Source of the DNA: Paenibacillus polymyxa M1
Lineage (GTDB): Bacteria; Bacillota; Bacilli; Paenibacillales; Paenibacillaceae
DNA: 64,000 bases
Reading direction: 5' to 3'
NCBI RefSeq assembly: GCF_000237325.1
Contig: NC_017542.1
Span: 2,700,501 to 2,764,500, forward strand
This document shows, one piece after another, positions 19,269-53,900 of the stretch. A program made the position numbers and the translations under genes. The stretch's first letter is position 1. Each line of letters begins with the position of its first letter. The notes below the pieces were generated by a model. The model did no database searches. It was not told where the DNA came from and saw only the letters and a program-made list of their open reading frames with translations.

Positions 19269-21105
19269 ACACACCGTCGGCAGTAAGCATATCAAAATGA
19301 AACAGCAAGGTCCCATGGGTAGAGGTCCTACGGAGGGGATGGGGACTGGTAAAAAAGCGAATGATTTTAGAAAAAACTTACGCCAGCTCTTATCCTACAT
19401 CAAGACCTATGCGCCTATGATTATCCTCTCTATGGTGCTGGCACTGGCCGGTTCCGTCTTCAATGTGATTGGTCCGGATAAGCTCAGCGATATTGCCAAC
19501 CTGATCCAGGAAGGAATTGTAACAGGGATTGATATAAATGCTATTCAGAAGATTGTTCTTGTACTGGTAGTTTTGTATGGTCTCGGCCTTATCTTTAATT
19601 ATTTCCAAGGATTCATTACGGTAACCGTGTCACAGCGCCTTACAAAGAAGATGCGGACAGAACTGTCCCGAAAAATTAATCATATGCCTTTGAAGTATTT
19701 TGATGCTACGAGCTATGGTAATGTGCTAAGCCGTGTAACCAACGATGTCGATACCATTGGACAAACATTAAACAACAGTCTCGGCACACTTGTCAGCGCC
19801 TTGGCAACCTTTGTGGGTGCATTGATTATGATGCTGTATACGAACTGGATCATGACCATTACCGGGATTGTAGCTACGCTGATTGGTTTTTCACTGATGA
19901 CCGTAATTATGAAGCATTCACAAAAATATTTTGTAGCACAGCAAGCGGAGCTTGGCCAGATCAACGGTCATATTGAAGAAACCTATGCTGGTCATAACGT
20001 AGTCAAGGTATATAACGGAGAAAAAGCAGCCAAGGAAGTGTTCCATGGCATTAATGGCCGCTTGTATACAAATGCATGGAAATCCCAGTTCATGTCTGGC
20101 CTGATGATGCCGGTTATGATGTTCATCGGGAATTTCGGTTATGTAGCGGTCTGTATCGTAGGCGCTTTGCTGGTGAACCAACATGTTATAACGATCGGAA
20201 CTATTGTGGCCTTTATGGTGTATATTCGTCTATTTACACAGCCCTTGTCACAGTTGGCGCAGGCTGCAACCAATTTGCAATCGGCGGCTGCTGCCAGTGA
20301 ACGTGTATTCGAATTTCTGGATGAAGAAGAATTGAAAGATGAAAGTGACAAGACCATGAAGCTAGATAACGCCAAAGGGGATGTTGAATTCAAACATGTT
20401 CGTTTCGGTTATAACGAAGACCATATGATTATCAAAGACTTCTCTATGAAAGCTGAAGCTGGTCAGAAAGTCGCCATTGTTGGCCCGACAGGTGCTGGTA
20501 AGACGACGCTCGTGAATTTGCTCATGCGGTTCTATGAGCTGAACGGAGGGGAAATTTATATTGATGGAACTCCGATCAGCCAATTAACACGTGAGAATGT
20601 TCATAAATTATTCTGTATGGTACTGCAGGATACATGGCTGTTTGAAGGAACGATTCGTGAGAATATCGTCTTTTCCCAAGACCATGTTACCGATGAACAG
20701 GTAGAAGCCGCATGTAGAGCAGTGGGTCTGCACAGCTTCCTTAAAACTCTGCCGCAGGGCTATGATACAGTACTAGACGACAAAGCCAATCTCTCTGCTG
20801 GCCAAAAGCAATTGATTACCATTGCAAGAGCCATGATTGAAGATGCGCCTATGCTCATATTGGACGAGGCCACAAGTTCGGTCGATACGCGTACGGAGTT
20901 GCTGATTCAACAAGCGATGGACCGACTTACTGTAGGGAAAACCTCTTTTGTGATTGCCCACCGTCTCTCAACGATTAAGAACGCCGATCTGATTCTGGTC
21001 ATGAAGGACGGTAACATTATCGAAACGGGTAATCATGAGGAATTGCTGGGTAAAGGCGGATTCTATGCCGATTTATATAACAGCCAGTTTGAACATGCAT
21101 CCTGA
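19255..21105 (+). CDS. ABC exporter half-transporter with canonical catalytic site
   Basis: 616 residues from ATG 19255, overlapping the previous gene by 14 nt. A Gly-rich N-terminal extension (MGRGPTEGMGTG) precedes six transmembrane helices and an ATPase domain with Walker A GPTGAGKTT, signature LSAGQKQL, Walker B MLILDEATSSVD with the catalytic Glu, and switch His (FVIAHRLSTI). It supplies the active ATPase site contributed by this half, while the partner supplies the degenerate one. The longer N-terminal tail is usual for the YheH/BmrD-type subunit. The transported compound is unknown. Confidence 0.92.
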   Translation: MDKNEHTVGSKHIKMKQQGPMGRGPTEGMGTGKKANDFRKNLRQLLSYIKTYAPMIILSMVLALAGSVFNVIGPDKLSDIANLIQEGIVTGIDINAIQKIVLVLVVLYGLGLIFNYFQGFITVTVSQRLTKKMRTELSRKINHMPLKYFDATSYGNVLSRVTNDVDTIGQTLNNSLGTLVSALATFVGALIMMLYTNWIMTITGIVATLIGFSLMTVIMKHSQKYFVAQQAELGQINGHIEETYAGHNVVKVYNGEKAAKEVFHGINGRLYTNAWKSQFMSGLMMPVMMFIGNFGYVAVCIVGALLVNQHVITIGTIVAFMVYIRLFTQPLSQLAQAATNLQSAAAASERVFEFLDEEELKDESDKTMKLDNAKGDVEFKHVRFGYNEDHMIIKDFSMKAEAGQKVAIVGPTGAGKTTLVNLLMRFYELNGGEIYIDGTPISQLTRENVHKLFCMVLQDTWLFEGTIRENIVFSQDHVTDEQVEAACRAVGLHSFLKTLPQGYDTVLDDKANLSAGQKQLITIARAMIEDAPMLILDEATSSVDTRTELLIQQAMDRLTVGKTSFVIAHRLSTIKNADLILVMKDGNIIETGNHEELLGKGGFYADLYNSQFEHAS

Positions 21106-32912: not shown

Positions 32913-34107
32913 TGGGTCAATAAGTTTCACAAAAGAAATGGTCCAAAAGTTATAAATTTTCTGAAAATCTAAACTTTTAATGAAAAATCCAAACGTTTCT
33001 ATTAATAAAAAAATAAAGTTTATAGCTCAAATGAGAGAATATTTAACCTAAATCGAAATTCTGAGAGAAAATTTAAAGAAAATTTTGCTCGGTAATTAGT
33101 TCAAAAGATCTAAAAAAATCACTATCTATTTAAAAAGTGAAGAGTTATTAATTTTGAATTAATTCAGCTTGAGTAAATAAATCCCATAATTTAGGTAGTT
33201 AAAGAATATTGCTGAAAAAGTTGAAATTTGTCGGATGGTGTCAGGATCGGCTTGTTATATTTGTGTTAATGATATGTAACGTAAAATGTGTTTTGGTACA
33301 AGGGTTTTGGACTTCATGCAAGCACACAGCATTTTTATTTTATCGATTATAAAATCAAAAATTTTGTTCTAAATCATATTAACTTGTCGTAGTTAGTATT
33401 CAATTTAATAAAAAAGTGGAATTCTTGCATTTAAAGATATAAAAATAATAGAATAATATGGGCTGTTTATTAATTTTATGAAATCTATCAAATTAGAACT
33501 TATGTCCCATGTTAATCGGTTTTAAAGTTTGTATATTTAAAATAGCTAGAAAGTATTGGGAGAAAAGAAGATATATAAGGATTTATTGTTATATTGTGGA
33601 CGGAAAGAGGATGTGAGAAATTTGTATGGCAACTCGGTCGTCTCTTGTTTGGTTTTTAAAAAATTTCCGGTAAATCCGTCCCACGTCTTCCATATTTCAA
33701 AGACAACTCCAATTTTATTCAGATTAATCTTTCACCAAAGAGCTTCGTTTGATGCAGAGAACACCGGAAGAAGTACTGTAATTCATCCATGTACAAAATC
33801 AGGAAGTCATAAGCGCAGTCGTGAGTATTTTTAGCTCCTTTCAGCCTAGAATTACGCTCCTAATCACGCTGCAGCAGTTCATGCGTCTCGTAGCATCGAT
33901 ACCCTCAAGCCAAGATTCAGACAGCACACATCACGACACACTACGTTGTTAACATTGCGGCAACCATTCTACAACCCACCACCAAGATTGCACTCACAGC
34001 ATAATTCGAAAATGTTCCCATTCCATGCACATATTCATACATCCAGAGTCAGAGTTTTTTCACCATGACCGCCCAACTAAAAAAAGCTTGCACTGCGAAA
34101 GTGTGAG

Positions 34108-34310
34108 CGATGAAAAAGAAGATGTGCTTATTCGATTAAAATCAGCTCTTCGAAGCTCCGGGGGGTTGAAGGAAACCAGCTTTCAGATAGGAGAAGGAGA
34201 AACGGTAACGATTGTCGTCGCGTGCCGTGGCGGCAAAAGCACGATCATCAAACTGCTACAACAAGTATGCGAACTCAGATCTCAATGGTATATCAGGAGT
34301 GGTCGCTTTT
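34108..34310 (+). pseudogene. ABC-transporter ATPase remnant upstream of NRPS
   Basis: The frame reads FQIGEGETVTIVVACRGGKS followed by TIIKLLQQV, close to ISFxIxxGETVAIVGxSGGGKSTIIKLL, the Walker A region of exporter-type ABC ATPases. Damage is visible: the GxxGxGKST loop has lost one Gly position (CRGGKST) and after QQV the likeness shifts to another frame (SDLNGISG). About 65 residues of an original 580 or so remain. Tridecaptin clusters are reported to encode ABC-transporter-like proteins near the synthetases, so it may be a lost export gene of this cluster; that link is inference. Confidence 0.6.
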
Positions 34311-34429
34311 GCCGACTTCCATTGGTAATTCAATGCCGGAAAAAAGGATCGCATGACCGTTTCTTGCCAAGGGCGGTCATTTTAGCAGAGTTACTTTTAC
34401 ACATATCTATTTTGCGAGGAGAGGGACGT

Positions 34430-37400
34430 ATGACTCAGCACGATGTTCAATTGTTTGCATTAAGCCAGCCACAGCAACGTATTTGGTACACGGAGCTTGT
34501 GTATCCCAATCGCAACACGTCTACGATTATTACTACTGTTAAAATCAAGGGAACGGTTCGCATAGATGCATTGCAGCAGGCAATGAACCGGGTTATTGCA
34601 CGAAATGATTCTTTTCGTATCAAAATCACGGTTCGGGACGGCATTCCCTATCAATATGTTGAGCCGTTTGCTACTCAAAGCATAGAAACCCTTCAGGTAA
34701 CCCAGGAGGAAGCTGAGCTATGGGTGAGCCATCATAACGCACAGCCGTTCCCCTTACTGGATTCGCAGCTGTATCGGTTTGTTATTTTGCAGCTGGGGGC
34801 AGAAGATACCTGGTTTAGTTTCAAGATGCATCATATTATTTCTGACGGCGTTACCATGGAGCAGGCCATTAATGAAATTACGGGAAATTATATGAATATT
34901 GTGCATGGTACAGGTTCAGATGCGCCGGTCCCAGCGAACTCATATCTCGATTTTATTCAGACAGAGCAAAGCTATGAGCAATCAGAACGCTATCAAAAGG
35001 ATAAGATGTACTGGACGGAGAAATTTGCCAATTTGCCGGAGGTTACAGGTTTAAAATCGTACAATCCGCTCACAGTAAGCACGGCTGCACGCCGGGAGAC
35101 CTATACACTGGAGCACGAATTATATCGTGGTGTCACGGCTTTTTGCGAGGCGCATAACATCAGTATTTTTACATTTTTTCTGGCTGCTCTGTATATTTAT
35201 TTACATAAAACGACAGGTGAACAAGATTTAACGGTTGGTACATTGTATGCTAACCGTACGTTGAAGAAGGAAAAAAATACAATGGGCATGTTCGTTAGCA
35301 CTGTGGCTACACGTTTGCAAGTTGAGCCGGAATCCGAGCTGCTTACTTTCCTACAGGGTGTTGGCAAGGAGCAGTCGTCCATTTTGCGGCATCAGCGTTA
35401 TCCGTATAACAAAATCATACAGGATTTGCGTGAACAACAAAGCGGCACGGATATTGGCCGCCTGTTTGGCGTTACCATTCAGTACCGTACGCTGAGCTTC
35501 TCTCGTTTTGATGAAGCTGTTCAGCAGGTGCATACCGATTTCTGCGGAGATACGGTGAGTGACTTTGATATTGCCATGATTGACATGCTGGATGACGATA
35601 AACTTGTATTGCAACTGGATTATCGGACCGAGCTGTTCAGCGAGCAGGAAATCGCCCGAATGATTCACCAATTTTTGAGTGTGGTAGAGCATATGGTGAA
35701 AGGGCCACAGCAGCGGATTCAGGAGTTGTCACTGATGAGTGACAAAGAGCGGGCACAAATTATGAATGTATTTAATGCGACCACAGTTCCCTTTCCAGAC
35801 GATGTGGGGATTCATGAGCTATTCGAGAAACAGGCAGAATGTACACCAGATCAGACAGCGGTTATGTTTGGAAGTCAGAGTCTGACTTATCGGGAACTGA
35901 ATGAACGGTCGAATTCATTGGCACGAATGCTTCAAGCACAGGGAGTAGGACCTGACAAGCTGGTCGGCCTGATGATGCAGCGCTCAGTGGAAATGATCGT
36001 AGGCCTGCTGGCTGTTCTAAAAGCAGGCGGTGCTTATGTGCCGATTGATCCCGAATTTCCGTCATCTCGTATTGAATACATGCTGGAAGACAGCAAGGCT
36101 GCAGTGCTTCTGACCAGTCGTGATTTGGCAGAAGAGCACCATTGTCAGGCCAATACCATGTTTCTTGAGGATGCAGAATTGTATCAGGGAGACAGCTGCA
36201 ACCTGGAGGTGATTTCTCACCCAGAGCATTTGGCTTACGTCATCTATACCTCTGGATCGACTGGTAATCCGAAAGGAGTTATGCTCCAGCATCGTTCGGT
36301 ACTCAACTTTATTACCGGGATGCGTGAAATCATTGACTTTGAAGCTGGTAAAACCATTTTGTCACTCACGACCATTTCATTCGATATTTTCGTCTTGGAA
36401 ACTATCTTACCGCTATTGGCTGGAATGACGGTTGTGCTTGGCGATCACCAGCATCAAGTGGATCCTCAGGCGCTTGGTGAGTTGATTACCCATCATTCTA
36501 TTGAGATGTTGCAAATGACACCATCCCGGCTGCAGATGCTGCTGGATCATGAAGCTGGTTCCCGCGCGCTGCGGGGCGTAAAGGAAATCATGGTGGGAGG
36601 TGAAGCCCTTCCTTCCAAGCTGCTCGCAGCACTGCAAGAAATAAATGGCCCCCGTATTTATAACATGTATGGACCTACAGAAACGACGGTTTGGTCGACC
36701 GTACAGGAACTGACTCATGCTCAAGAAATTAATATAGGACGTCCCATCGCGAATACCCAAATATATATCATCAATGCGAGTGGGGAATTGCAGCCAGTCG
36801 GTGTGCCGGGCGAGTTATGTATAGCAGGGGAAGGCTTGGCCCGTGGGTATTGGAATCTGGAAGATCTGACGGCAGAGAAATTTGTAAATAATCCGTTTGC
36901 CGGAGATAAAGCAGGTTATGAACGGATGTACCGTACAGGCGATTTGGCGAGATGGACACTGGACGGCAACATTGAATATTTGGGACGGATGGATCACCAG
37001 GTGAAAATCCGGGGCTACCGGATCGAACTGGGCGAGATCGAATCGCAGCTATTGCAGGTGGAGTCGGTACGAGAAGCGTCCGTCGTGGCTCGTGTGGACG
37101 AAACAACGGGCCAAAAACAAATGGTGGCATACTATGTGGCCAGTCAAGCAATGGAAGCCAGTAAACTGAGAAGTGAGCTGGGGCGGGAGCTACCAAGCTA
37201 TATGGTGCCGTCGTATTTCATTCAGTTGGAGCAGATGCCGTTGACACCGAACGGTAAAATCGACCGCAAGTCCCTGCCAGCACCGGAAGGCAGTCAGCAA
37301 AGCGGAGCGGATTATGAAGCGCCCCATACTGCGCGGGAACAGGCACTCGCAACGATCTGGCAGTCCGTCCTGGGCGTGCCAACCGTCGGTATTTTGGACA

Positions 37401-38970
37401 ATTTCTTTGATCTGGGCGGCGATTCCATCAAGGCGATTCAAATCGTATCCCGTGCGTTCCAGGCAGGCTACAAGCTGGATATGAAGGATCTGCTTCGGTG
37501 TCCAACCATCGCAGCATTGGCACCACTTATGACAAGTCGTATGGCAGATCAGGGAGAAGTGAGCGGGGAAACGGCATTGCTTCCGATCCATCATTGGTTC
37601 TTTGAACAGGAGCAAGTGGACGCGCATCATTTTAATCAGGCGGTTATGCTGCACCGGGAGCAGGGCTTTGACGAAGCTGCTTTGCATCAAGCGTTAATCC
37701 AGTTGACGGAGCACCACGATGCACTGCGGATGGTGTTCAGGAAGACCGAGCAAGGCTACCAAGCGTGGAATCGCGGAATACAGGAAGGCGAGCTGTATCA
37801 TCTGGACGTGCTGGACTTTAGGGATTTGACGGATGAAGTCACCCTGAGCACGAAGATTGAAACGAAAGCAACTGAAATTCAAAACAACATAAACTTGTCT
37901 GAAGGACCGCTGGTAAAGCTCGCTCTGTTCCGTTGTACTGATGGAGACCATTTGTTGGTGACAATCCACCATTTGGTGGTCGACAGCGTATCATGGCGTA
38001 TTTTGCTGGAGGATCTGGCATCCGGCTATGAGCAGGCTTTACGGGGCGAGTCTGTTCGCTTGCCGAATAAGACGGATTCTTTCCGCCTGTGGGCAGATCA
38101 ACTGGCAGCTTATGCGAACAGCACCGCGTTGGAGAAGGAACGTGCGTATTGGGAGCAGGTGGAGGAAGCAGGGAAGAGTCTGGCATCCTTGCCTATGGAT
38201 TACACTCATAAATCTCAGGCCAAGCGACAGCTTCAGGATGATCGAACACTGACCGTAGCGTGGACGGTCGAAGAAACGGAACAATTCTTGAAACAAGCTC
38301 ATCGGGCCTACAATACAGAAGCAAACGACCTGCTGCTGACAGCTTTGGGCATCGCCATTCAGGAGTGGGCAGGCATCCGTCAGGTGCTTGTAAACTTGGA
38401 GGGTCATGGACGGGAAGCCATTTTGCCGGATATGGATATTACGCGCACGGTCGGTTGGTTTACCAGTCAATTCCCAGTTGTACTGGATATGGGCGAGGAC
38501 CGGAATGTGGGACAGCGTGTCAAGAACGTCAAGGAAGGGCTGCGCCGTTTGCCGCATAAAGGGATTGGATACGGGATTTTGAGATATCTTGCTGACGGAG
38601 AAGGGAAAGCAGCTTTTGTTGCCGAGCCGGAAATCAGCTTTAACTATCTTGGACAATTTGATCAGGATTTGAAAAATAATGCTTTCCGCGTGTCACCTTA
38701 TTCCATCGGAGCTTCCATGAGTGACACGTTGACCAAGCGGTATGCGCTGGATATCAACGGTATGATCACGGACGGTGCACTGGAACTGGCGATCACCTAC
38801 AGCAACAAAATGTTCATGAAAAAATCAATCAAAAAGCTGGCTGATCTGCTTCAGGAGAGTTTACGTGAGGTATTGGCTCACTGTGTGGGCAAAGAGCTGC
38901 CGGAGCTGACCCCAAGCGACTTGTCCTTCCGAGGACTGACGGCTGTAGAGCTGGATCATATTGTAGAGCA
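34430..38970 (+). other. NRPS module 1: starter C - A(Gly) - T - E
   Basis: Starter C domain with HHIISDG (34829-34849) for fatty-acyl transfer. A domain about 35800-37260 (TSGSTGNPKG, NGKID); pocket residues read in order D-I-L-Q-M-G-M-V-W, closest to the Gly code DILQLGLIW. T domain LGGDS with the pantetheinyl Ser at 37424-37426. E domain about 37560-38900: its first motif reads PIHHWFF (usual PIQxWFF) and the active-site motif HHLVVDS has Ser (37985-37987) for Gly. An epimerase acting on Gly would have no effect. The A-T region is almost a copy of module 3. Confidence 0.82.
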
Positions 38971-41900
38971 GACGGCTGCTGCGGGAGAACTGGAAAACAT
39001 TTATTCGTTAACACCCATGCAAAAAGGCATCCTGTTCCACGGCTTCATGGAGCCGCAATCCGGGGCATATTTTGAGCAGGCGACATTTGATCTACAAGGC
39101 AGCTTTCAAGTGGAGGCTTTTGCCGAAAGCCTCAATCAACTGGTGGAGCGCCATCAAATATTCAGAACGAATTTTTATAGCGGCTGGAATGAACAGCCTT
39201 TACAGGTAGTGTACCGCCACAAACCTGCCGGGTTCCGTTTTGAAGATATACGCTTGATGGGACAAGAAGAGCAGGACGCATACATTGCTGATTTTGCTGA
39301 GCGCGACAAAGCCGAAGGCTTTCATTTCAGCTCAGGCGAGCTGATGCGGGTGTCTATTTTACGTACAGGCGAGGAGTTGTACCGTTTTGTTTGGAGCTTC
39401 CATCATATTTTGATGGACGGCTGGTGCTTGTTCCTGGTTGTAGGGGAAGCATTTAATACGTACTTTGCCATCCTCGAAGACCGCAAGCCAGAGCTTGCCC
39501 CGGTAACACCATACAGCGAATATATTGAATGGCTGGATCGGCAGGACAAGACGGAGGCTGAACGGTTCTGGCGTGATTATTTTGCGGGCTTTGAGCAGCA
39601 GACGGTATTGCCGCAGGTCAAACAGCTGGACGGTCACGCTAAAGCATATGAAGCGGACAAGCTTTCGTTTACACTGGGCCGTGAAGTGACGGAGCGGATG
39701 AACAAGCTGGTTAAGCAGAAGCAAGTGACGGTCAACACACTTTTGCAAGCAGCGTGGGGCGTTGTGCTGCAGCGGTATAACAACAGCCGGGATGTGGTAT
39801 TTGGCAGTGTCGTATCTGGCAGATCAGCCGATATTCCGGGCATAGACAAAATGATTGGGTTGTTCATTAATACGGTTCCTGTACGGATTCACAGTGAGAA
39901 AGATATGACATTTGCTGGGCTGATGAAGCAGATCCAGGAGCAGGCACTGGCTTCCCGTGCCTATGAAACCTATCCGTTGTATGACATTCAGGCCCTGACC
40001 GAGCAGAAACAGGACTTGGTAAACCATATTATCGTGTTTGAAAACTACCCGGTGGAACAGCGCATGGAGCAGATGGGTAGCCGTGGCGCGAATGGCTTTA
40101 CGATTGCCAATGCTTCCATGTCAGAGCAAACGAACTATGATTTCAACATTACGGTTGTGCCGGGTGATGAAATTCATTTCCATTTGGAGTACAACGCGAA
40201 GGTGTTGGAACGTGCAGCTGTAGAGCAAATCCGTGAGCATTTGCTGCATATGATTGAAGAAGCGATTCACAGACCAGATGCACGGGTAGATGAGCTTCAA
40301 TTGGTGACTGCTGCGGAAAAATCAAAAATCATCGATGGTTTTGGATCAGTAGGCGTAGCTGCGTGGACTGATGAAAAAGAATCTAATTTGTTGTTCCACG
40401 CCTATGTGGAAGAACAGGCACAGCTTGTGCCGGATCACGTGGCCGTTGTATACGAGGAACGGCAGTTTACGTACCGCGAGCTGAACGAGCGTGGAAACCA
40501 GCTTGCTCGCAGATTGCGGAATGAGGGCATTGGACGCGAGTCCATTGTGGGTATTTTGAGCGAACGCTCGGTAGACATGCTGGTCGGTGTATTGGCGGTC
40601 TGGAAAGCAGGAGGCGCATATGTGCCGCTGGATGCGGATTATCCGTCCGAACGGATTCGCTTTATGCTCGAGGACAGTGGTGCGACGGTGCTGCTAACGC
40701 AAACCGGTTTGCAAGAGTGTGCACAGGTTTGGCTGGAGGCAAGTCGGCAGGCCTTGGTCGGAGGGCAGACTGAGGGTGAATTGAAAACAGCGGCTGGCGC
40801 TGAAACGATGGAAAGAGACAGCCTGAGTGAAGGCATAAGCTTGAAATTAGATTCGAAGTCTGACAGCGAAGAAGCATCCAAACCAGCAACAGGGCTGCGT
40901 CTGCATACCGTATTGGCATTGGACGATGAGTCGCTGTACACCGGGGATGCCACGGATGTTGAACCTATCAATGAACCACACGATTTGGCATATGTGATCT
41001 ATACGTCCGGTACAACCGGACGTCCGAAAGGCGTCATGATCGAACATCGCAGCTTGGTGAATACGGCTGCGGCGTATCGCCGGGATTACCGTCTGAACCA
41101 GTTCCCGGTACGACTGTTGCAACTGGCCAGCTTTTCCTTCGACGTGTTCGTCGGCGATATTGCACGGACGCTTTATAACGGCGGCACGATGGTTATCTGT
41201 CCGAAAGATGATCGCATTGATCCAAGCCGTTTGTACGGATGGATTCGTGATTATCAGATTACCGTGTTCGAATCGACTCCGGCCTTGATCGTACCGTTTA
41301 TGCAGCATGTGCATGAACAGGGGCTGGACATGAGCAACATGGAACTGCTGATCACCAGCTCGGATAGCTGCAGCGTGACGGACTACCGGGTGCTGCAAGA
41401 ACGGTTTGGCGCAGATATCCGCATGATCAACAGCTACGGCGTCACGGAAGCGGCGATTGACTCCAGCTTCTATGACGAAGAGCTGTCGAAGTTGCCAAGC
41501 AGTGGCCATGTGCCGATTGGCCAAGCGTGGCTGAACGCACGCTTCTACATCGTGGACAGCCAGCTGAATCCGGTGCCGATCGGTGTACTGGGTGAGCTGT
41601 GCATTGGCGGTGCTGGCGTGGCACGGGGGTACCTGAACCGTGCGGACCTGACCGCCGAGAAATTCGTAGCGAACCCTTACGTACCGGGGGAACGTTTGTA
41701 TCGCACAGGCGATTTGGCGCGGTGGATGCCGGACGGTAATGTGGACTTTATCGGCCGGATGGACTACCAGGTCAAAATCCGGGGATACCGGATTGAGCTG
41801 GGCGAGATTGAAACGGCGATCCAGCGAGTGCCAGGTGTGCGTCAAGCCGTAGTCATCGACCGGACGGACGAGCGTGGAAACAAATATTTGTGCGGATACA

Positions 41901-44900
41901 TCACGGGAGAAGCCGAGCTGCGGATGGAGGAAGTACAGACCGAGCTGGAAGCCGGACTGCCAGCACACATGGTGCCTACACGTCTGATGCGACTGGAGAC
42001 CATCCCGCTGACCAGCAACGGCAAAATCGACCGCAAGGCCTTGCCGGAGCCGGAAGGCAGCATCTATACGGGAGCAGGCTATGTAGCCCCGCGTACCCAG
42101 GTGGAGCAAGTACTGGCTGCGGTATGGGCTGGAGTACTGGGCGTGGAAGCCGTAGGCACGCAGGATAACTTCTTTGAGCTGGGTGGCGATTCGATCAAAG
42201 CACTGCAAGTCTCGTCTCGCTTGCTGCAAGCAGGCTATCGATTGAACATGAAAGACCTCTTTAGTAATCCGACAGTAGCAGCACTCAGTCCTTTGCTTCG
42301 TACAGATGTCAAGATGGCCAGTCAGGAAGAGGCAGTAGGCCCGGTGGAACTGACACCTATTCAGCGATGGTTCTTCGAGCAGCAGCCGGCCGACCTGCAC
42401 CACAGCAACCAGGCGATGATGCTGTATCGAGCTGGGCGCTTTGACGTCGACGCGTTGCGCCGTACGATGGACCGTATGGTCCAGCATCATGACGCATTGC
42501 GCACGGTATTCCGTGAGACGGAGCAGGGCTATGTCGCTTGGAACCGCAGTGTAGCGGAAGGCGAGCTATACACGCTGGACATTGTAGATTTCAGCGCAGT
42601 GGAAGACGAATCCACCGCTGTTGAAGCCAAGGCGAGTGAAATTCAAGAGAGCATTCATTTGAGTGAGGGTCCACTTGTGAAGCTTGGTCTGTTTCACTGC
42701 GCTGAGGGCGACCATTTGCTAATCGTCATTCATCATTTGGTTGTGGACGGTGTATCGTGGCGTATTTTACTGGAAGATTTGGCATCCGGTTATGAGCAGG
42801 CTGTTGCAGGTCAAACCGGCACAGCGATCCGACTGCCGCATAAAACAGATTCATTCCAGGTATGGGCCAAACAGCTGTCAGCCTATGCCAGCAGTGCGAC
42901 GATGGAGCGGGAGCTTGCTTACTGGCAGCATATCGAACAAGCAGAAGCTAGCCTTGTGAAGCCTTTGCCGAAGGATTTTGCAAATGACAATGCACGGCTT
43001 GGAGACAGTGAGGTTGTGACGGTCCGCTGGACGAAGCAGGAAACCGAGCAGCTGCTCAAACAAGCTCATCGCGCGTACAACACGGAAATGAATGACCTGT
43101 TGCTGGCTGCGCTCGGAAAAGCAGTCTATGACTGGTCTGGTTCCGAACGGGTGCTGGTCAATCTGGAGGGCCATGGACGGGAAGCCATTGTACCGGATGT
43201 GGATATTACGCGCACGGTCGGCTGGTTTACGAGCCAGTTCCCGGTTGTACTGGATGGAAGTTTGGGACAAGGGGGACATACCGCTCGTCTGATCAAAAGG
43301 ATCAAGGAAGGGCTGCGTCATATTCCGCAAAAAGGCATCGGCTACGGTATTTTACGATACCTGTCGGATATGAATATGCTGGAGAAAGCAGGCGTGCGGT
43401 TACAGGCTCAGCCTGAGATCAGTTTTAACTACTTGGGCCAATTCGATCAGGATTATAAAGGCAATGATCTACAGCCTTCCGCCTATTCTATCGGTGTGCC
43501 TGTCAGCACGAACGCGACTATGGATTTTGCGCTGGATATCAATGGAGTAATCGAAGATGGCGAGTTGATGTTCACGATTCGCTACGGCACAACGCAGTTC
43601 CGTCATGAAACGATTGAACGGCTTGGAGAGCTGCTGGCATCCAGCTTGCGTGAGGTGATTCATCACTGTGTTGCCCAAGAAAGAACGATGCTAACCCCAA
43701 GTGATGTCCTGTTAAACCATGTAACGCTGGATGAGCTGGAGCAATTGGTGGAAGATACGCGAGATCTGGGCGAGCTGGAAAATGTGTATGCCTTAACGCC
43801 GATGCAAAAGGGGATGCTCTTCTACAGCCTGATGGATGAGAATTCGGCGGCTTATTTTGAGCAGGCCACCTTTGAGTTGAACGGACGCTTCGATGTGGTT
43901 ACTTTCGGTAAAAGTTTTGATTTGCTCGTGCAGCGTCATGAGGCATTGCGGACGAACTTTATCAACTCCTGGAAGGATGAGCCTGTACAGGTCGTTTTCC
44001 GCAATCGTAGCGGACAATTATACTATGAAGACCTGCGCGGACTGGAAAAAGAGGAACGAAAAGCTCAAGTTGAAGCTTTTACCCTTGCCGATAAAGCGAA
44101 AGGATTCAATCTCGCAGAGGGCGCACTCATTCGTATCTCCATCCTGCAAACCGGGGATGAAACGTATCACTTTATCTGGAGCTTCCATCACATTTTGATG
44201 GATGGCTGGTGCTTGTCCTTTATGACACAGGAGGTATTCGGTAGCTATCTGGCACTGCGTGCGGGAGGGGAGCCAGTACTGGAGCCAGTCACGCCGTTCA
44301 GTCGATTTATTGAATGGCTGGAACGTCAGGACCGTGAGGCAGCCTTGCAATACTGGAGTGGGTATTTGGCGGACTATGAGCAGCAAATTACGCTTCCTCA
44401 GCAAAAAACACAGCCTAAATCGATGCACGTCGGGGAATATATCGCTGAAGATCTGGATTGCGAATTCCAGCCAGAGCTGGTTGCCCAGATTGAACGGGTG
44501 GCGAAGCAAAATCAGGTCACGATCAACACACTGATTCAGACGGTATGGGGCGTCTTGTTGCAAAAATATAACAATAGTTCGGATGTCGTGTTCGGCAGCG
44601 TTGTGTCTGGTCGCCCAGGGGATATTCCAGGTGTAGAGCACATGATCGGGCTATTTATTAATACCATTCCAGTGCGTGTGCAGTCTGAACAAGGCGAAAC
44701 CTTTGTCGAGCTGATGAAACGAACCCAGCAGCAGGCGCTGGCTTCCAATGCCTACGATGCGTTCCCGCTGTATGAAATTCAGGCGCTGGCCGAGCAGAAA
44801 CAGGATTTAATCAATCATATTATGATATTTGAAAATTATCCGGTGGAGCAACAGGTAGAGCAGTTGGGCAGTGAAGGACAGGAGCCCTTCACAATTTCGA

Positions 44901-47900
44901 ATGTGGTGTCTACAGAGGAAACCAACTACGATCTGAACGTCGTCGTTATGCCGGGAGAAGGCATTAAAATTCGTTTTATGTATAACGCGCTCAGCTTTGA
45001 TCAAGCAGGTATTGAGCGTCTATATGGGCATTTTGCACGTCTGCTGGAGCAAATTTCGCTCAACCCGCATATTCGGGTTGAAGAGCTGGAACTACTCACA
45101 GCAGCGGAAAAACAACAGATTACAGCGGCATTTAATGACACCGCTTGTGCATTCCCATGCAAACAGACGATCCATCAGCTGTTCGAGGAGCAGGTAGAAT
45201 ATACGCCAGACCAGGTGGCATTGGTGTTTGGACATCAGAGTCTGACTTATCGGGAACTGAATGAACGGGCCAACTCATTGGCACGCATACTTCAAGCACA
45301 GGGAGTAGAACCTGACAAACTGGTCGGCCTGATGGTGCATCGCTCAGTGGAAATGATCGTAGGTCTGCTGGCCGTTCTAAAAGCAGGTGGTGCTTATGTG
45401 CCAATTGATCCCGAATTTCCGTCCTCTCGTATTGCATACATGCTGGAAGATAGCGAGGCCACAGTGCTTCTGACCAGTCGTGATCTGTTGGAAGAGCATC
45501 ATTGCCACGCCAATGCAATATTTCTTGAAGATAAAGAATTGTATCAGGGAGAGAACGGCAACCTGGAGACAGTTGCTCAGCCAGAGCATTTGGCATACGT
45601 CATCTATACGTCTGGTTCGACTGGAAATCCGAAAGGAGTTATGCTCCAGCACCGCTCGGTCCTCAATTTTATTACAGGGATGCGCGAAGTCATTGACTTT
45701 GAAGCCAGCCAAACCATTTTGTCACTGACGACCATTTCATTCGATATTTTTGTCTTGGAAACCATCTTGCCTCTGCTGGGTGGAATGACGGTCGTGCTTG
45801 GCGACAGCCAGCATCAGGTGAATCCTCAGGCACTAGGTGATTTGATTGCTCATCATCATATTGAGATGTTGCAAATGACACCATCCCGGGTGCAAATGCT
45901 GCTGGGTCATGAAGCAGGCTCCCGCGCGCTGCAAGGCGTGAAGGCAATTATGGTCGGGGGCGAAGCTCTTCCGTCCAAGCTGCTCGCAGCACTGCAAGAA
46001 ATAAACGGTCCCCGTATTTACAATATGTACGGACCTACAGAAACGACAGTTTGGTCGACTGTGCAGGAACTGACCCATGCTCAACAAATCAACATTGGAC
46101 GCCCTATCGCGAATACCCAAATATTTATCATGAATGCGAATGGGGAGTTGCAGCCAGTCGGTGTGCCGGGTGAGTTATGTATTGCCGGGGAAGGATTGGC
46201 CCGTGGGTATTGGAAACGTGAAGAACTGACGGCCGAGAAATTTGTAAATAATCCGTTTGCTGGTGACAAGGCAGACCATGAGCGGATGTATCGTACAGGC
46301 GATTTGGCAAGATGGATGCCGGATGGCAACATTGAATATTTGGGTCGGATGGACCATCAAGTGAAAATCAGAGGCTACCGGATCGAACTGGGCGAGATCG
46401 AATCGCAGCTGCTGCAGATGGAGTCCGTACAAGAAGCGGTCATCATGGCCCGCACGGACGAAACGGGTCAAACCCAGCTAGTGGCGTACTACGTGGCGAG
46501 TCAAGAGCTTGGAGCTAATGAGCTGAGGCAGGAGCTGGGACAAGAGCTGCCAAGCTATATGGTGCCGTCGTATTTCATCTGGTTGGAGCAGATGCCGCTG
46601 ACACCGAACGGTAAAATCGACCGCAAGGCACTGCCTGCACCGGAAGGCAGTCTGCACAGCGGTGCGGATTATGCAGTGCCACGCACTGTAACGGAACGAG
46701 CACTCGTAGCGATCTGGCAGTCCGTCCTGGGCGTGCCAACTGTAGGTACTTTGGACAATTTCTTTGACCTGGGCGGCGATTCCATCAAGGCGATTCAAAT
46801 CGTGTCGCGTGCGTTCCAGGTAGGCTACAAGCTGGACATGAAAGATTTGTTCCGCTATCCAACCGTTGCAACACTGGCACCGCATATGCATGAGACAAGT
46901 CGTATGATAGATCAGGGAGAAGTAACTGGAGAAACGACTTTGCTTCCGATCCAGCACGGGTTCTTTGCACAGGAGCAAGTAGACGTGCATCACTTTAATC
47001 AGGCGGTTATGCTGCACCGGGAGCAGGGTTTTGATGAGTCTGCTCTGCGTCAGGCACTTGGCAAACTAGCAGCGCACCATGATGCACTGCGGATGGTGTT
47101 CAGCAAGACCGAGCAAGGCTACCAAGCATGGAACCGCGGAATACAGGAGGGCGAGCTGTACCACCTGGATGTGCTGGACTTTAGCAATTTGACGGATGAA
47201 GTCATGCTCAGCACGGCAATTGAGACGAAAGCCAGTGAAATTCAAAGCAGTATTCAACTGCAAGAAGGGCCGCTGTTAAAGGCTGGCTTGTTCCACTGTG
47301 CAGACGGGGATCATCTCCTGATGGCAATTCACCATTTGGTCGTGGACGGGGTATCATGGCGTATTTTGTTCGAGGATTTGGCTGTAGCTTATGAACAGGC
47401 CATCCGTGAAGAGGCGCTCCAGTTACCAGACAAAACGGAATCATTCCGTTCCTGGTCACAAAAACTTTCCACCTATGCGAATAGCGCAGCCATGGAAAGT
47501 GAACACGCCTACTGGGAAGAATGGAATGCAGCCGCTTTGTTAGACCAAGTACGTTTGCCTGAGGATCAAGGGCAGGCTGAACCGTTTACCCTAGCTGACA
47601 CGGATACAGTGGTCTTCCAGCTTACGGAGGAAGAGACAGAAAAACTATTGAAGCAAGCACACCGCGCATATAACACGGAAGTGAACGATCTGCTGCTGAC
47701 CGCATTGGGCATGACGCTGTACACGTGGACGGGTCATGAACGCAGTCTGATTCATTTAGAGGGACACGGACGTGAGAACATTTTGCCGGATACGGACCTT
47801 TCTCGTACAGTAGGCTGGTTTACGAGTCAATATCCGGTATGGCTTGACATCGGCCGTGATCACGCTTTGTCGGAATGCATCAAACAGGTCAAAGAGAGTC

Positions 47901-50900
47901 TGCGTCATATTCCTAATAAAGGAATTGGCTATGGAATTTGGAGATATTTGAATGAATCTGGTCAAGCCGTTGGTCAACATCAAGCTTTTGCCGAGCCACA
48001 AGTAAGCTTTAACTATCTCGGACAGTTTGATCAGGACTTGCAAAACAGCGATATCCGTATGTCTCCTTACTCGATGGGATCGGTCATTAGTGACCGTACG
48101 AAGATGAAATATGCGCTCGAAGTGAGCGGAATCGTAACGAACGGCATCCTGGAACTGGAGATTCGGTATAACGGAAAAGCCTTCCGTAAGGACACCGTGC
48201 AGATGCTGGCTGATCTGTTGAAATCCAATCTGCTTGAAATGATCGAGCATTGTGTCACACGGGAGCGGACCGAATTGACTCCAAGTGATGTACTGTTTAA
48301 AGGTCTGACCCTGGAGCAATTAGATACGATTAAGGAGCAGACAAAGACGCTTGGGGAATTGGAAAATGTGTACCCGCTAACGCCAATGCAAAAGGGTATG
48401 CTGTTCCACAGTTTGATGAATGCAGAAACAGGCGTGTATTTTGAGCAGGCGACCTTTGATCTTGAGGGCTACTTTACACCGTCTATATTCGAGGAAAGCT
48501 TGAAGCTGCTGGTTAGTCGACATGCTATATTACGGACGAATTTCTATAGTGGCTGGCATGGTCAACCGTTGCAGATTGTCTATCGTCATAAAAATCCGAG
48601 CTTCTTTTATGAGGATGTCAGAGGGTGTGAACAGGCTGTAGCTGAATTTGTGGCCCAGGACAAAGCTCGAGGCTTTGATTTAAGCAAGGATGCGCTCATG
48701 CGCGTAGCTGTCTTCCGCACGGGTGATCGCTCATACCGTTTTGTATGGAGCTTCCATCATATTGTGATGGACGGCTGGTGCCTGTCCCTGATGACGGACG
48801 AAGTGTTTGGTGCATATGTTGCCTTGCTGGAGAATAAGCAGCCAGAGCTCGCACCTGTCAAGCCGTATAGTGACTATATCGAATGGTTGGAACATCAAGA
48901 TGCACGGGAAGCGACCCGTTATTGGAGTAACTATTTGGCAGGTTTTGAGCAGCAAACATTGTTGCCTAGTGAGAACGTGCAAGCTTCTGTAGTAGAACGC
49001 GATGAAGATACAGACAGAAGCGGTGGAAGTTCAAATTCCGGTTATGTTTCGGAAAAGCTGCCATTTATGTTGGGTAAAGAACGGAGTGCCACATTAAACC
49101 GAATTGCCAAGCAACAACATGTAACGATTAACACATTGCTGCAGAGCGTTTGGGGCGTTATTTTACAGAAATACAATAATAATCAGGATGTTGTGTTTGG
49201 TAGTGTTGTATCCGGTCGTCCGGCAGAAATTGCAGGCGTAGAGAACATGATCGGTTTGTTTATCAACACGATTCCGGTACGGATATGCAGTGCACCGGAT
49301 GCTACATTTGCTGAAGTATTGCAGCGTACACAGGAACAGGCTTTGGCCTCCAGTGTCTATGATACGTTCCCGCTGTACGACATTCAGGCACTGACTGAAC
49401 AAAAACAAGACCTAATTCATCACATCATGGTCTTTGAAAACTACCCAATCGGGCAGCAGATGAAGCAGATGGGCGGTTCCGGCGAGACAAAGGCACAAAC
49501 AGGCTTCTCTATTGCCAATGTGGCACTTGCAGAGCAAACCAACTACGATTTTAATCTGATTGTCGTACCTGATGAGGATATCTCTATCCTGTTTGAATAC
49601 AATGCGCTGGTGTATAACCGGTCTGCAGTGGAGCGTATCTATGGTCATATCAACCACGTCATCGGACAAATCGTGGACAATCCGCATATCCATGTGAATG
49701 AGCTGGAATTGGTGACACCGGAAGAGCAGACACAGATCGTTCAGGTGTGGGGAGATACGGCGGCAGCCTATCCGCAGGATCAAACGCTAAGCGCATTATT
49801 CGAGCAGCAGGCAGCGAACACGCCGGAGCAAGTGGCGGTGTTGTGCGGAGCGGAATCGTTGACCTACGCAGAGCTGAATGAGCGAGCCAACCGTCTCGCA
49901 CGCACCTTGCGTGCCGAAGGGGTTGAACCGGATCAGCCGGTAGGCATTCTGGTCCACCGTTCACTGGACATGATCGTAGGCATCTATGCGATCCTGAAGG
50001 CAGGCGGAGCCTATGTGCCGATTGATCCGGAATATCCGGCCGACCGCATCCGCTTTATGCTGGAGGACTCAGGCGCGAAGCTGGTGCTGACGCAATCGCA
50101 TCTGGCGGAGCAAGCATCGCTGAGTTTCGACGGCCAGGTGCTGATACTGGATCACGAGGACATCTATCACGAAGATGGCTCGAATCTGGAGCCACTGGCT
50201 GGATCGCACCATGTCGCCTATGTCATTTATACCTCTGGCTCCACGGGAAAACCGAAGGGCGTGATGGTGGAACACTATTCCGTGCTGAACCGGATTTTGT
50301 GGATGCATGATCGGTACGGCTTGAGTGCGGAAGATACGATCCTGCAAAAGACCGCCTTCACCTTCGACGTGTCGGTGTGGGAGCTGTTCTGGTGGTCGAT
50401 GGTCGGCTCGAAGGTAAGCCTGCTGTCCGTGGGCGGGGAAAAGAACCCGGAAGATATCGTCGACACGATTGCCCGCGATGGCGTGAGCACGATGCACTTT
50501 GTTCCAGCCATGCTGCATGCGTTCCTGGAGTACGTTGAGCAGCAGCCACGGGAAGTGATGCAAGCGAAGCTGGGCACACTGCGCCATGTCTTTGCCAGTG
50601 GTGAAGCGTTGCCGCCACAACATGTGGCCCGGTTCCAGCGGCTCGTATCGAGCCTGACCGGAGCGAAGCTGATCAACCTGTACGGCCCAACCGAAGCGAC
50701 GGTGGACGTATCGTACTTTGATTGCGATCCGGATGAGGAATATACAGTTATCCCGATCGGGAAACCGATTCAAAATATCCGTCTGTATATCGTGAAGGAA
50801 GGCACGGAGCAATTGCAGCCGATTGGTGTGGCAGGGGAACTGTGCATCGGCGGTGTCGGCGTAGCCAGAGGTTACCTGAACCGTCCGGAGCTGACGGCCG

Positions 50901-53900
50901 AGAAATTTGTAGAGAACCCGTTTGCCGGAGGCAAAGCAGGCTATGAACGGATGTACCGCACCGGCGATTTGGCGAGATGGATGCCGGACGGCAACATTGA
51001 ATATCTGGGCCGGATCGATCATCAGGTGAAAATCAGGGGTTATCGGATTGAGCTGGGCGAGGTCGAATCGCAGCTGCTCCAGGTGGAATCGGTACGAGAA
51101 GCCGTGGTCGTGGCCCGTACGGACGAAAAGGGCCAAAACCACATGGTGGCCTACTATGTCGCGGGACAAGTAGTCGAGGCCAGCGAGCTAAGAAGTGAGC
51201 TGGGACGGGAGCTGCCAGGCTACATGGTGCCATCCTACTTTGTACAACTGGAACAGCTGCCACAGACACCGAATGGCAAAATCGACCGCAAGGCCTTGCC
51301 GGCACCGGAAGGCAGCCTGCAAACTGGAGTCGATTATGCCGAGCCGCGTACGGCGCAAGAACGCGCTTTGGTAGCGGTCTGGCAGTCGGTACTGGGACTA
51401 CAGACGGTTGGTATTTTGGACAATTTCTTTGATCTGGGCGGTGATTCGATCAAGGCGATCCAAATCGCCTCCCGTGCGTTCCAGGCTGGCTATAAGCTGG
51501 ACATGAAGGATTTGTTCCAGTATCCAACCGTTGAAGCCCTGGCACCGCATATGCATGAGGTCCGTCGTATGGCAGATCAGGAAGAAGTCAGCGGGGAAAC
51601 GGCGCTACTTCCGATCCAGCATTGGTTCTTTGCGCAGGAGCGCGAGCGTCCACAGCACTTTAATCAGGCGGTTATGCTCTATCGCGCCGAGGGTTTTGAT
51701 GAGACAGCGGTTCGCCAAGCCATGGATCACCTCGTGAAGCATCATGATGCGCTGCGTACGGTATTCCATCAGACTTCCGCTGGTTATACAGCTTGGACTC
51801 GCCATGTAGAGGAAGGCACGTTATATACACTGGAAACTTTGGATTACCGTGAACGGGCCGCTTATGCGGAAGCGCTGGAAGCGAAGGCAACGGAAATCCA
51901 AAGCAGCATGGACCTGTCCGCAGGACCTTTGGTGAAACTCGGATGGTTCCGCACAGCGGAGGGCGACCATCTGCTGATCGCCATTCACCATTTGGTGGTG
52001 GACGGAGTGTCGTGGCGGATTCTGTTTGAAGATTTCTCGACAGGCTACGAGCAGGCGATCCAGGGAGAGTCCGTACGATTGCCATATAAAACAGATTCCT
52101 TCCAAACTTGGGCACGGGAGTTATCCTCTTATGCTAACCGTCCTGAGGCTGCATCGGATGAAGTCTATTGGAAGCAGCTGGAACAGGTCAAAGCTGAAGC
52201 TGCACCACTGCCTAAGGATTTTGCCTACGAGGGCTCCGTGAATGCAGACAGCGAAGTGCTAACGGTGGAGTGGACTGAAGCTGAAACCCAGCAACTGCTG
52301 AAGCATGCACATCGCGCCTATAACACCGAGGTCAATGATTTGCTGCTGACCGCGCTGGGACTCGCGGTGCACAACTGGACAGGCGCAGGACATGTACTGG
52401 TGAACCTGGAGGGCCATGGCCGGGAAGCGATCCTGCCAGAGGTGGATATTACGCGTACGATCGGCTGGTTTACGAGCTTGTATCCGGTGCTGCTGGATAC
52501 AGGTGCAAACCTGACGCTGGCTCAGCGGATTAAAGAAACGAAGGAAGGATTGCGCCGGATTCCGCATAAAGGCCTGACCTATGGCACTTGGCGTTACCTG
52601 TCCTCTGCGTTGCCTGCAGATGAAGTGGGCACGATCGCAGCCGAACCGGAAATCAGCTTTAACTATTTGGGGCAGGTCGATCAGGATCTGCAAAACAGTG
52701 GAATTACGTTGTCCTCCTACCGTGCAGGGGAGACAGAGGATGCCCATTCACCGTTACTGTACACGCTGGATTTGAACGCAATGATCTCGGAAGGCACGCT
52801 GCGTTTGACGATCGCTTACAGCCGTAAGCAGTATCGTAAAGAAACGCTGGAACGAGTGGCGGGGCTAATGAAATCCGCTTTGCAGGAGGTCATTACGCAT
52901 TGCGTCGCTCAGGAGCGGCCAGAGCTTACCCCAAGTGATGTATCCTTCAAAGGTCTGACGACTGGTGAGCTGGAACAGATTGCGGAACAGGCGGCACGTA
53001 TCGGTGAGCTGGAAAATGTATACGCACTGACGCCGATGCAGAAGGGCATGCTCTTTTACAATCTGATGGATTCGCAATCGGGAGCTTATTTTGAACAGGC
53101 CTCCTTTGATCTGCGAGGACATTTTAATATCGCTGCCTTTGCAGCCAGTTTGGATGTCTTGGTGCAGCGGCATACGGTACTGCGCACGAACTTCTACAGC
53201 GGCTGGAAGGATGAACCGCTTCAGGTCGTGTACCGGAATAAGCGCAGCGAACTGTATGTTGAAGATTTAAGGGACATGGAGGACGAGCAGCAAAACGAAT
53301 ACATGCTCGAATTTACGCGTAAAGACAAGCAAAGAGGCTTTGACCTGGCACAAGACGCCTTGATGCGTGTCGCTGTGTTGCGCACAGGTGAGGAGACGTA
53401 TCGTTTTGTATGGAGCTTCCACCATATTGTGATGGACGGCTGGTGCTTGTCGCTGGTGACCAACGAAGTGTTTGCAAGTTATTTTGCGATACTGGCTCAT
53501 AAACAACCGGAACTGGCCCCTGTAACCCCGTACAGTCAATATATCGAATGGCTAGAGCAGCAGGATCGTCAGGCTGCATCGAGCTACTGGAGCAAGGTTT
53601 TGGAAGGGTATGAGGAGCAGTCCCGCTTGCCACAGGCAAAAATTCAGGGTAAGACGGGGTATCAGTCGGAGCGTTTGGATTTTGATCTGGGCGCAGATCT
53701 CACAGCTGGTATTCAGCGCATAGCCAAGCGTTATCAGGTCACCATCAATACGTTGATGCAAACCGTATGGGGCCTTTTACTGCAAAAATATAATGGCACC
53801 GATGATGTCGTGTTTGGCAGTGTAGTATCTGGACGTCCGGCAGACATTCCGAATGTGGAGCATATCATTGGTCTGTTTATCAATACGATTCCGGTGCGTA

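Follow-up and report, generated by a model that had tools for sequence, protein, structure and literature searches.

Probable replacement of a Val-type module 1 block by a module 3-type block in a relocated triD gene of Paenibacillus polymyxa

The window analyzed here, a stretch of 64,000 nucleotides from P. polymyxa M1, contains the first part of a tridecaptin synthetase gene in which modules 1 and 3 share an A-T-E(N-terminal) block. This raises the question of whether the two modules are alike because they load the same substrate or because one was copied over the other. An earlier note had suggested that a copy of module 3 overwrote a Val-specific module 1 and altered residue 1 of the peptide. 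The relevant features are as follows.

33120..34428, + strand: what is left of the upstream flank, colinear but decayed, comprising a frameshifted triA with stop codons, and triB, both preceding TriD-b (blastn and tblastn with the intact G027 cluster as reference)
34430..64000, continuing to 76681 in the extended sequence (G000:C1:2777181), + strand: TriD-type 10-module tridecaptin synthetase, second-locus copy (TriD-b; start codon, domains)
34430..35790, + strand: starter condensation domain (Cs) of module 1, for which b copies form one clade (100/100)
35869..37903, + strand: swapped block of module 1, i.e., A domain with Gly pocket, T, and N-terminal E (identity profile, crossover mapping, tree and AU test)
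37913..38950, + strand: remaining E domain of module 1, of native module 1 origin, with the motif HHLVVDS at 37967-37987 (identity profile, crossovers)
40392..41806, + strand: module 2 Dab A-domain stretch, a same-substrate control against module 7 (62274-63688), 86.7% identity
45235..47256, + strand: matching module 3 block (Gly), of the donor lineage (blastn, tree, crossovers; ends transferred via offsets)
49098..51323, + strand: module 4 Ser stretch, a same-substrate control against module 6 (58332-60560), 84.3% identity

The gene and its two loci

TriD-b encodes 14083 amino acids without an internal stop codon. The start at position 34430 (the Met of MTQHDVQLF) is preceded by the ribosome-binding site GAGGAG, and relatives do not share the start of a longer ORF at 34025. 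The domain content is that of TriD, with 10 modules, a starter C domain, E domains in modules 1-5 and 8, a terminal C domain, and no thioesterase. The E domains of modules 2-5 carry HHxxxDG, and E8 reads HHLVVDT. Amongst Gly1 copies, the E1 motif is HHLVVDS in the window and P0122, HHLVVDD in the second-locus copy of G027, and intact in G026b, P0121, and P0123, as it is in 12 of 12 Val1 copies with a readable E1. Decay of E1 following the change to Gly was considered and dropped, since the HHLVVDT of E8 in the same gene suggests that the last Gly of the motif is not essential and the altered E1 motif is thus no proof of loss.

A distance of 213 kb separates TriD-b from the classic tri locus. 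The genomes G026 and G027 hold both copies (TriD-a and TriD-b) 240-280 kb apart, so that two paralogous synthetases, one with changed specificity, occur together in these two genomes and not in the window genome. The cluster neighbors triA, triB, triC, and triE are represented beside TriD-b by the decayed triA and triB remains only, and the stretches read contain no TriE-like NRPS next to it. In the window genome, the classic locus has suffered one deletion, which begins within triB, reaches almost to the end of triD, and has removed most of triB, triC, and nearly all of triD, leaving triA and triE (3750 aa, with a thioesterase) intact; only the b copy is complete. Since the classic triD is nearly gone and triA and triE are kept, a product would need the TriD of the window together with the distant TriE. 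With triC absent from the classic locus and just ~141 residues of TriB left there, this genome may lack export and self-protection, and its pathway may be in decay.

Quartet-site counts were obtained for the two genomes read in which each copy is complete, G026 and G027. Sites grouping by locus outnumber those grouping by genome in Cs (176 vs. 0), the swapped block (642 vs. 4), and A9 (289 vs. 3), and Cs forms a locus-specific island jointly with the adjoining block. The middle of the gene groups by genome instead (107 locus vs. 1275 genome sites, with 98 for the third split), a pattern that gene conversion would leave. Genome grouping leads less clearly within 43.4-45.4 kb (14 locus vs. 32 genome and 11 vs. 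22) and between A9 and the gene end (54 vs. 78), and the sites beside A9 (72.4-73.4 kb) favor locus (34 vs. 7). Exactly identical 300-bp windows make up 18 of 108 in the middle of the gene in G027 and 0 of 108 in G026. In G026, TriD-a and TriD-b end in the same 60 aa. Module 11, which has like motifs, was considered as the donor of the b-type A9, but the tree did not bear this out; the b module 9 joins module 9 of G060 rather than module 11, although with a support of 0.0.

It is rather unlikely, on this evidence, that TriD-b is a non-functional relic kept alive solely by gene conversion from TriD-a. The decayed triA and triB, the lack of an adjoining TriE-like NRPS in the stretches read, and the 649-aa fragment that is all G025 holds would fit such a relic, but Cs and A9, which lie outside the converted part, have dN/dS values of 0.10-0.11 and 0.05-0.07 between b copies (whole gene, 0.105-0.107), the ORF of approximately 14,070 aa is open in all three complete copies, and the window genome has no full TriD-a as a conversion source. 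The open frame and the purifying selection are both evident from the sequence.

Crossovers, donor, and age of the module 1 block

A blastn search of the window against itself aligned 35809-38019 with 45169-47382 at 85.0% identity (2221 columns, 17 gaps). The description of modules 1 and 3 as near-identical was overstated, as this is an ordinary level for the gene; the Ser4/Ser6 and Dab2/Dab7 pairs, compared in the same way, are at 84-87%. The constant offset of 9360 bp proposed earlier holds from 35.8 to approximately 37.1 kb, beyond which it becomes 9357 bp (to ~37.5 kb) and 9363 bp (to ~38.0 kb). The block extends approximately 50 bp past the suggested end of 37850, to ~37903. The pocket stretches, read by hand as were all A-domain pockets, are equal save for neighboring residues, and the flanking C domains (identity 0.30-0.45) and later E parts (0.49-0.72) diverge, both as the earlier note had seen.

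The sliding-window comparison that the note had called for was run against two classic Val-type synthetases, G027 and G059 (P. terrae NRRL B-30644). The identity of the window module 1 to their module 1 is 0.75-0.93 until ~35.7 kb, drops to 0.37-0.68 inside the block apart from a conserved stretch at ~36.9-37.0 kb (0.72-0.75), and returns to 0.77-0.95 from ~37.95 kb. The profile against module 3 is the inverse, and thus the jumps at both ends are reciprocal. Based on eight Val-type orthologue rows, the left crossover lies at 35863/35875, ahead of motif A1 (12-bp resolution), and the right crossover at 37893/37913, within E (20-bp resolution); a two-breakpoint segmentation leaves 21 of 1206 informative sites discordant. 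Native module 1 sequence resumes on both flanks within 12-20 bp.

The module 1 blocks of the three complete b copies nest within a Gly clade of the module 3 type, forking with module 3 from the same species group (support 96/97), and an AU test argues against the other 13 Gly blocks forming one clade (p = 0.0031). This nesting identifies module 3 as the donor type. The pocket stretches of the swapped A1 match module 3 of P. terrae NRRL B-30644 (L012/L054), and Gly is described as position 3 of tridecaptin A in the sections consulted of PMC11106739. In related genomes, the classic locus still has a Val-type module 1 (11 of 11 copies, one of them partly masked), and the two outgroup copies have it as well; Val1 is therefore the older state. 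Two sharp crossovers with native flanks and a block nested in the diversity of the donor module are the signature expected of intragenic copying, and together with the identity jumps they support the proposed overwriting of a Val-specific module 1. In such data, gene conversion would look the same as a double crossover between copies.

An origin of the Gly block from another NRPS, or from the synthetase of another strain, by horizontal transfer is improbable. The block is roughly as far from module 3 in the window copy as from module 3 in other genomes (dS 0.37-0.52), and the donor therefore need not be the same molecule; however, orthologues aside, the top matches in 75 genomes are TriD Gly-type blocks at 84-87% (best four candidates per genome, so that closer ones could be missed), the next NRPS matches reach 75-78% over most of the A domain in the same search, and in the tree the sister of the block is module 3 from its own species group. 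That module 1 was always Gly, with nothing replaced and the likeness to module 3 due merely to a shared substrate, agrees with the 84-87% identity of other same-substrate pairs and with the known Gly1 tridecaptins B and M, but has next to no probability given the crossover mapping, the Val-type module 1 in all classic-locus and outgroup copies read, and the tree and AU test, by which we take it as refuted for this lineage.

The same swapped block occurs in the second-locus copies of G026 and G027, and the swap is thus old enough to be shared with two other genomes. Module 1 of the window does group with that of other strains, which the earlier note regarded as contrary evidence, but narrowly, with these two copies, which inherited the swap. 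The Cs clade of b copies has five rows, three with the whole block (the full-length b copies, n = 3); the G025 fragment carries only the block start and the G019 copy has an A1 of a different type, and therefore the swap need not be ancestral to all b copies. The Cs trees omit four weaker matches (47-49%) of 22 places, taken as other synthetases, and the 22 places derive from at most the best 20 candidates per genome. Three more proteins with a Gly-type module 1 (P0121-P0123) are known from protein sequence through an N-terminal search; among the 120 matches listed for a whole-length TriD protein search, none exceeds 7939 aa and none is thus a full TriD. Still-ongoing conversion between modules 1 and 3 was rejected, as the module-1b blocks of all three copies cluster together (93/94) and away from module 3. 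The swap may predate the relocation, having arisen at the classic locus.

Predicted product and a two-locus model

With considerable confidence, we interpret TriD-b as a relocated second triD in which a module 3 block replaced the Val-type block of module 1 and which would make the Gly1 decapeptide of tridecaptin B/M. In an ancestor of TriD-b, a 2.03-kb block of module 3 (Gly A domain, carrier domain, and first part of E) would have replaced its counterpart, with the native starter C domain left in place along with the remainder of E. Module 1 would then load Gly, and TriD-b, presumably expressed, would hand the decapeptide from its C-terminal end to the classic-locus TriE approximately 213 kb away. 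The pockets of the window TriD-b, read by hand, combine a Gly-type A1 with an Ile/Val-type A9, as in tridecaptin B/M, and module 13 in the window genome has the DVW..LVD pattern of Ser modules, fitting Ser13. As tridecaptin B is described as Gly1/Ile-Val9/Ser13 in the sections consulted of PMC8127968, this is the predicted product of the strain.

We give an even chance to a broader model, in which some Paenibacillus genomes feed a single TriE from two 42-kb triD genes separated by 240-280 kb and make A-type (Val1/Trp9) and B-type (Gly1/Ile-Val9) tridecaptins together. Gene conversion after the duplication would have kept exchanging sequence between the genes, matching the proteins nearly everywhere save at A1 and A9, where the swapped domains interrupt the homology required for conversion. 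Cs would be shielded too, with decayed DNA on its upstream side and the swapped A1 block on the other, so that lipid tail and residue 1 would stay linked. The window genome would represent the last stage, with the ancestral triD gone and the relocated Gly1 copy working with the old triE. Cs-A1 and A9 are also the positions separating tridecaptins A and B.

The swap illustrates a natural route to a changed residue 1 of a lipopeptide antibiotic, moving an A-T-E(N-terminal) unit from module 3 to module 1. The join points, just ahead of motif A1 and shortly ahead of the HH motif of the E domain, yielded a synthetase that stayed under purifying selection, and both are naturally tested joins of interest for NRPS engineering. 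The two-locus pattern offers a testable natural case of paralogous synthetases homogenized save at the parts that set specificity.

Comparison with known systems

TrbD (P. polymyxa NRRL B-30507) and TrmD (Paenibacillus sp. M-152) resemble the window TriD-b, with a predicted order of Gly1, Dab2, Gly3, Ser4, Trp5, Ser6, Dab7, Dab8, Ile(/Val)9, and Glu10, but according to the published description they sit in clusters with triA-triE counterparts (PMC11007031, in part), whereas the window gene stands alone. The 42.3-kb unrps (“unknown NRPS”) of P. polymyxa DSM 365, M-152, and CJX518, described in 2024, is TriD-like, has the same decapeptide and, like TriD-b, no triE or thioesterase nearby (PMC11007031); it is very likely the same gene. 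Finishing of its product by TriE was already proposed there, and the unrps section of that paper does not cover the origin of Gly1, triA/triB relics, triD conversion, or a strain with only the orphan copy plus triE. Gly1 tridecaptins and the orphan NRPS had already been published, and the origin of the copy and the conversion pattern appear to be new.

The bifurcated wollamide/desotamide assembly line with its genes wolG1/wolG2 likewise involves a duplicated NRPS gene, within-genome recombination altering an A domain (Orn to Gly), and later gene loss, but in the account consulted the donor is another NRPS (rmoG) and the crossovers lie within the A domain (sections of PMC9205934); in TriD-b, the donor type is module 3 of its own assembly line, the exchanged unit is A-T-E(N), and 240-280 kb separate the copies in G026 and G027. 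Studies of NRPS recombination and concerted evolution also describe, in the portions consulted, within-genome A-domain exchange and homogenized domains (PMC8097286; PMC4256081), whereas the homogenization between TriD-a and TriD-b would act on a pair of long paralogs located apart in the genome and leave two islands diverged.

The triD-b gene and the block shared by modules 1 and 3

The finding is confined to a single NRPS gene in the 6.23-Mb genome of Paenibacillus polymyxa M1 (G000), namely the second-locus tridecaptin synthetase triD-b on the forward strand; the window covers G000:C1:2700501-2764500. The mechanical ORF begins at 34025, and the start common to relatives lies at 34430, preceded by a GAGGAG site. 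The synthetase has 14083 aa and runs past the window to 76681 in extended coordinates; it carries a final C domain, ten A domains, and, in modules 1-5 and 8, E domains, and has no thioesterase. Its first 1350 aa are 98% identical to P. polymyxa protein P0122. Read by hand, the A-domain pockets of modules 1-10 presumably stand for Gly, Dab, Gly, Ser, Trp, Ser, Dab, Dab, Val/Ile-type, and Glu. The Gly assignment is supported by module 3 of P. terrae NRRL B-30644, which has the same pocket stretches, and by PMC11106739, which gives Gly at position 3 of tridecaptin A.

Using blastn, the parallel block that the earlier note described in modules 1 and 3 is recovered as 35809-38019 against 45169-47382 with 85.0% identity; the offset, described there as constant for most of the length, is 9360 bp until about 37.1 kb, then 9357 and then 9363. 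The 85.0% level is ordinary, as the same-gene controls reach 84.3% (modules 4/6, Ser) and 86.7% (modules 2/7, Dab), and what is distinctive is the pattern against orthologues. In codon-aligned profiles referenced to the Val-type module 1 of two classic synthetases, module 1 resembles Val-type module 1 on both sides of the block, up to about 35.8 kb and beyond about 37.9 kb, and module 3 in between, so that the identity jumps proposed as a check occur at both block ends. A breakpoint model was fitted to three rows of module 1b (the Gly-type module 1 of the b copies), eight of Val-type module 1, and ten of module 3, with 1206 informative sites. The best two-breakpoint model leaves 21 of these discordant and places the crossovers at 35863/35875 and 37893/37913. 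The first is three to seven residues ahead of LTYREL, which we take to be motif A1, and the second is 54-74 nt ahead of the E-domain motif HHLVVDS; what was exchanged is therefore the A domain, the T domain, and the N-terminal part of E.

Donor and age of the swapped block

A tree was built of 16 Gly-type TriD A domains, with the root placed on the four closest relatives fetched from other synthetases. The three module-1b blocks branch inside its module-3-type group. Their sister is module 3 of G000, G025, G026, and G027 (the latter three from relatives) plus a contig piece of relative G019. Constraining the other 13 Gly domains to form one clade lowers the likelihood by 19.3 log units (AU p = 0.0031). 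Two of these 13 are now located in module 4 of G008 (locus L052) and module 6 of G013 (locus L095), where another type occupies module 3, and their placement indicates that the same Gly-type A domain has been relocated within the assembly line.

The swap is not specific to the window strain because an identical-type block occurs at the same locus in G026 and G027 and in proteins P0121-P0123, and the G025 fragment carries its start. The G019 copy is the first branch in the b clade of the starter condensation domain (Cs), and its module-1 A domain is of the TriE module 13 type (DVF..GTF; locus L042, protein P0133), hence residue 1 was apparently altered by another route in this copy. This argues against the second locus as a whole having one origin, and the swap may be younger than the G019 split or may have been overwritten in G019. 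Synonymous distances are 0.37-0.52 from module 1b to module 3, 0.22-0.32 among module-1b blocks, and 0.66-1.02 between the Cs of b and a. These values place the swap before the three complete b copies diverged, and its age could be similar to or less than that of the a/b split. The proposal that a module 3 copy overwrote a Val-specific module 1, changing residue 1, is right in substance, the replacement being old and inherited.

Between b copies, dN/dS is 0.105-0.107 for the gene, and 0.10-0.11 and 0.05-0.07 for Cs and A9, respectively, two regions apparently untouched by conversion. The swapped block has 0.15-0.18, slightly above the 0.08 of its classic counterpart, which comes from one pair.

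The last residue of the E1 and E8 motifs is altered in G000; the E1 motif is also altered in G027 and is intact in G026. The E1 change was dropped as an argument on function since E8 of the same gene departs at the same place (HHLVVDT at aa 11303, beyond the window, locus L009). As tridecaptin residue 8 is D-Dab despite this motif, synthetases of the tridecaptin family may not require the final Gly of HHxxxDG.

The second locus and probable exchange between triD copies

The genus-wide search covered 75 genomes, scoring at most 20 candidates per genome, and found 22 places in 14 genomes. The 18 places used comprise the classic locus a, whose 11 rows have a Val-type module 1, the second locus b (five rows: G000, G019, G025, G026, and G027), and two outgroup rows. 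The b Cs sequences form one clade (100/100 support). The b gene is complete in G000, G026, and G027, a 649-aa fragment in G025, and interrupted by a contig end in G019. Colinear decayed pieces of triA and triB lie upstream of b, and a remnant of the triD-triE spacer, about 90-115 bp long, lies downstream, so that b probably originated as a tri cluster in which triD is the only surviving gene. No further NRPS adjoins the gene in the sequence read around b in G026 and G027. In G000 the next NRPS lies about 19 kb downstream and is of a different kind; this separate cluster (95950-117977 in extended coordinates; loci L010 and L011) encodes synthetases of 4215 and about 3130 aa, and the swapped block has a 75% match, 1.2 kb long, in one of its A domains. 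The upstream flank contains:

Window 17499-21105, a pair of ABC transporters that also adjoins b in G019, G025, G026, and G027

The pair is also present in five relatives of other clades (G013, G059, G060, G061, and G063), where no other part of the b flanks was found in the up to 20 kb fetched from each. The G026/G027 copy is more diverged (88%) than that of several b-less genomes (90-92%).

The two genomes read with both copies complete, G026 and G027, were used for the a/b comparison. In the middle of the gene, 1275 sites group by genome versus 107 by locus and 98 in the third grouping. The respective counts of genome- versus locus-grouping sites are 0 versus 176 in Cs, 4 versus 642 in the swapped block, 3 versus 289 in A9, 7 versus 34 in a single 1-kb window beside A9, and 78 versus 54 from A9 to the gene end. 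In G027, the two copies match exactly in 18 of 108 middle windows of 300 bp; no such window is identical between the G026 copies or between the two genomes. The middle dS is 0.13-0.18 within a genome versus 0.30-0.44 between genomes, and the Cs dS between a and b is 0.90-1.02. Such groupings and distances are what would be left by conversion between an old gene pair. Foreign A1 and A9 blocks may halt conversion tracts, and Cs, with the A1 block on one side and upstream DNA lacking homology on the other, would be shielded by this position. The two islands that were spared specify residues 1 and 9; according to PMC8127968, the differences between tridecaptins A and B lie at these two positions, at position 13, and in the tail. 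As the same source describes the tridecaptin B tail as lacking the 3-hydroxyl, a link between the b-type Cs and tail type is possible.

Other possible rearrangements are seen in relatives. The aromatic-type A domains of classic-locus module 9 (G013, G025, G026, G027, G059, and G063) group with module 5 of their own species group, which suggests that modules 5 and 9 were repeatedly copied or homogenised; Trp9 of tridecaptin A5 may be a copy of this kind. In G062 (locus L051), a 3887-aa ORF fuses the triD starter end to three TriE-type modules (Val, Ile, and Ala-like patterns), apparently by a large in-frame deletion, in a partly masked stretch.

The classic locus, predicted product, and known systems

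The classic locus of G000 precedes the window gene, with 213 kb between the triE end and the triD-b start:

Contig G000:C1, about 2.508-2.522 Mb (loci L067 and L068), classic tri locus with triA and triE kept

What looks like one deletion event spans from inside triB, of which about 141 residues remain, to the last 0.9 kb of triD, so that triC and nearly all of triD are gone. The product of the remaining triE is 3750 aa long and has a thioesterase and three A domains, and module 13 has a Ser-type pattern. No second close TriD start turned up in G000 when the whole genome was searched with the Cs domain (next best, 47% identical), hence a tridecaptin would need TriD-b together with the distant TriE. 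TriD-a, the classic-locus copy, and TriD-b share the same C-terminal end in G026 and have similar ends elsewhere, and the predicted G000 peptide fits tridecaptin B. The loss of the triB/triC exporter weighs against production; of the TriB-like transporters in G000, the closest, near 5.09 Mb, are 53-55% identical in the ATPase part.

Gly1 tridecaptins are already known (PMC8127968; tridecaptin M, PMC6535564, both in excerpt), and tridecaptin clusters of other strains are described in the parts available of PMC7829367 and PMC13298791. Among the matches listed from the open literature, where the original tridecaptin B1 work is represented by a review, no report was found of a module-3 origin of Gly1 or of conversion between triD copies. 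Concerted evolution (PMC4256081) and A-domain recombination (PMC8097286) are general themes in the sections consulted, and the replacement adds a well-resolved new example to an established class of events, made more interesting by its setting at two loci. The accessible text of PMC11007031 reports an orphan synthetase in P. polymyxa DSM 365, M-152, and CJX518, which is assigned the same decapeptide as that predicted for the window gene and for which finishing by TriE was suggested. A comparable case is that of the wollamides, where duplication and recombination yielded a Gly-specific copy (PMC9205934, in the portion available).
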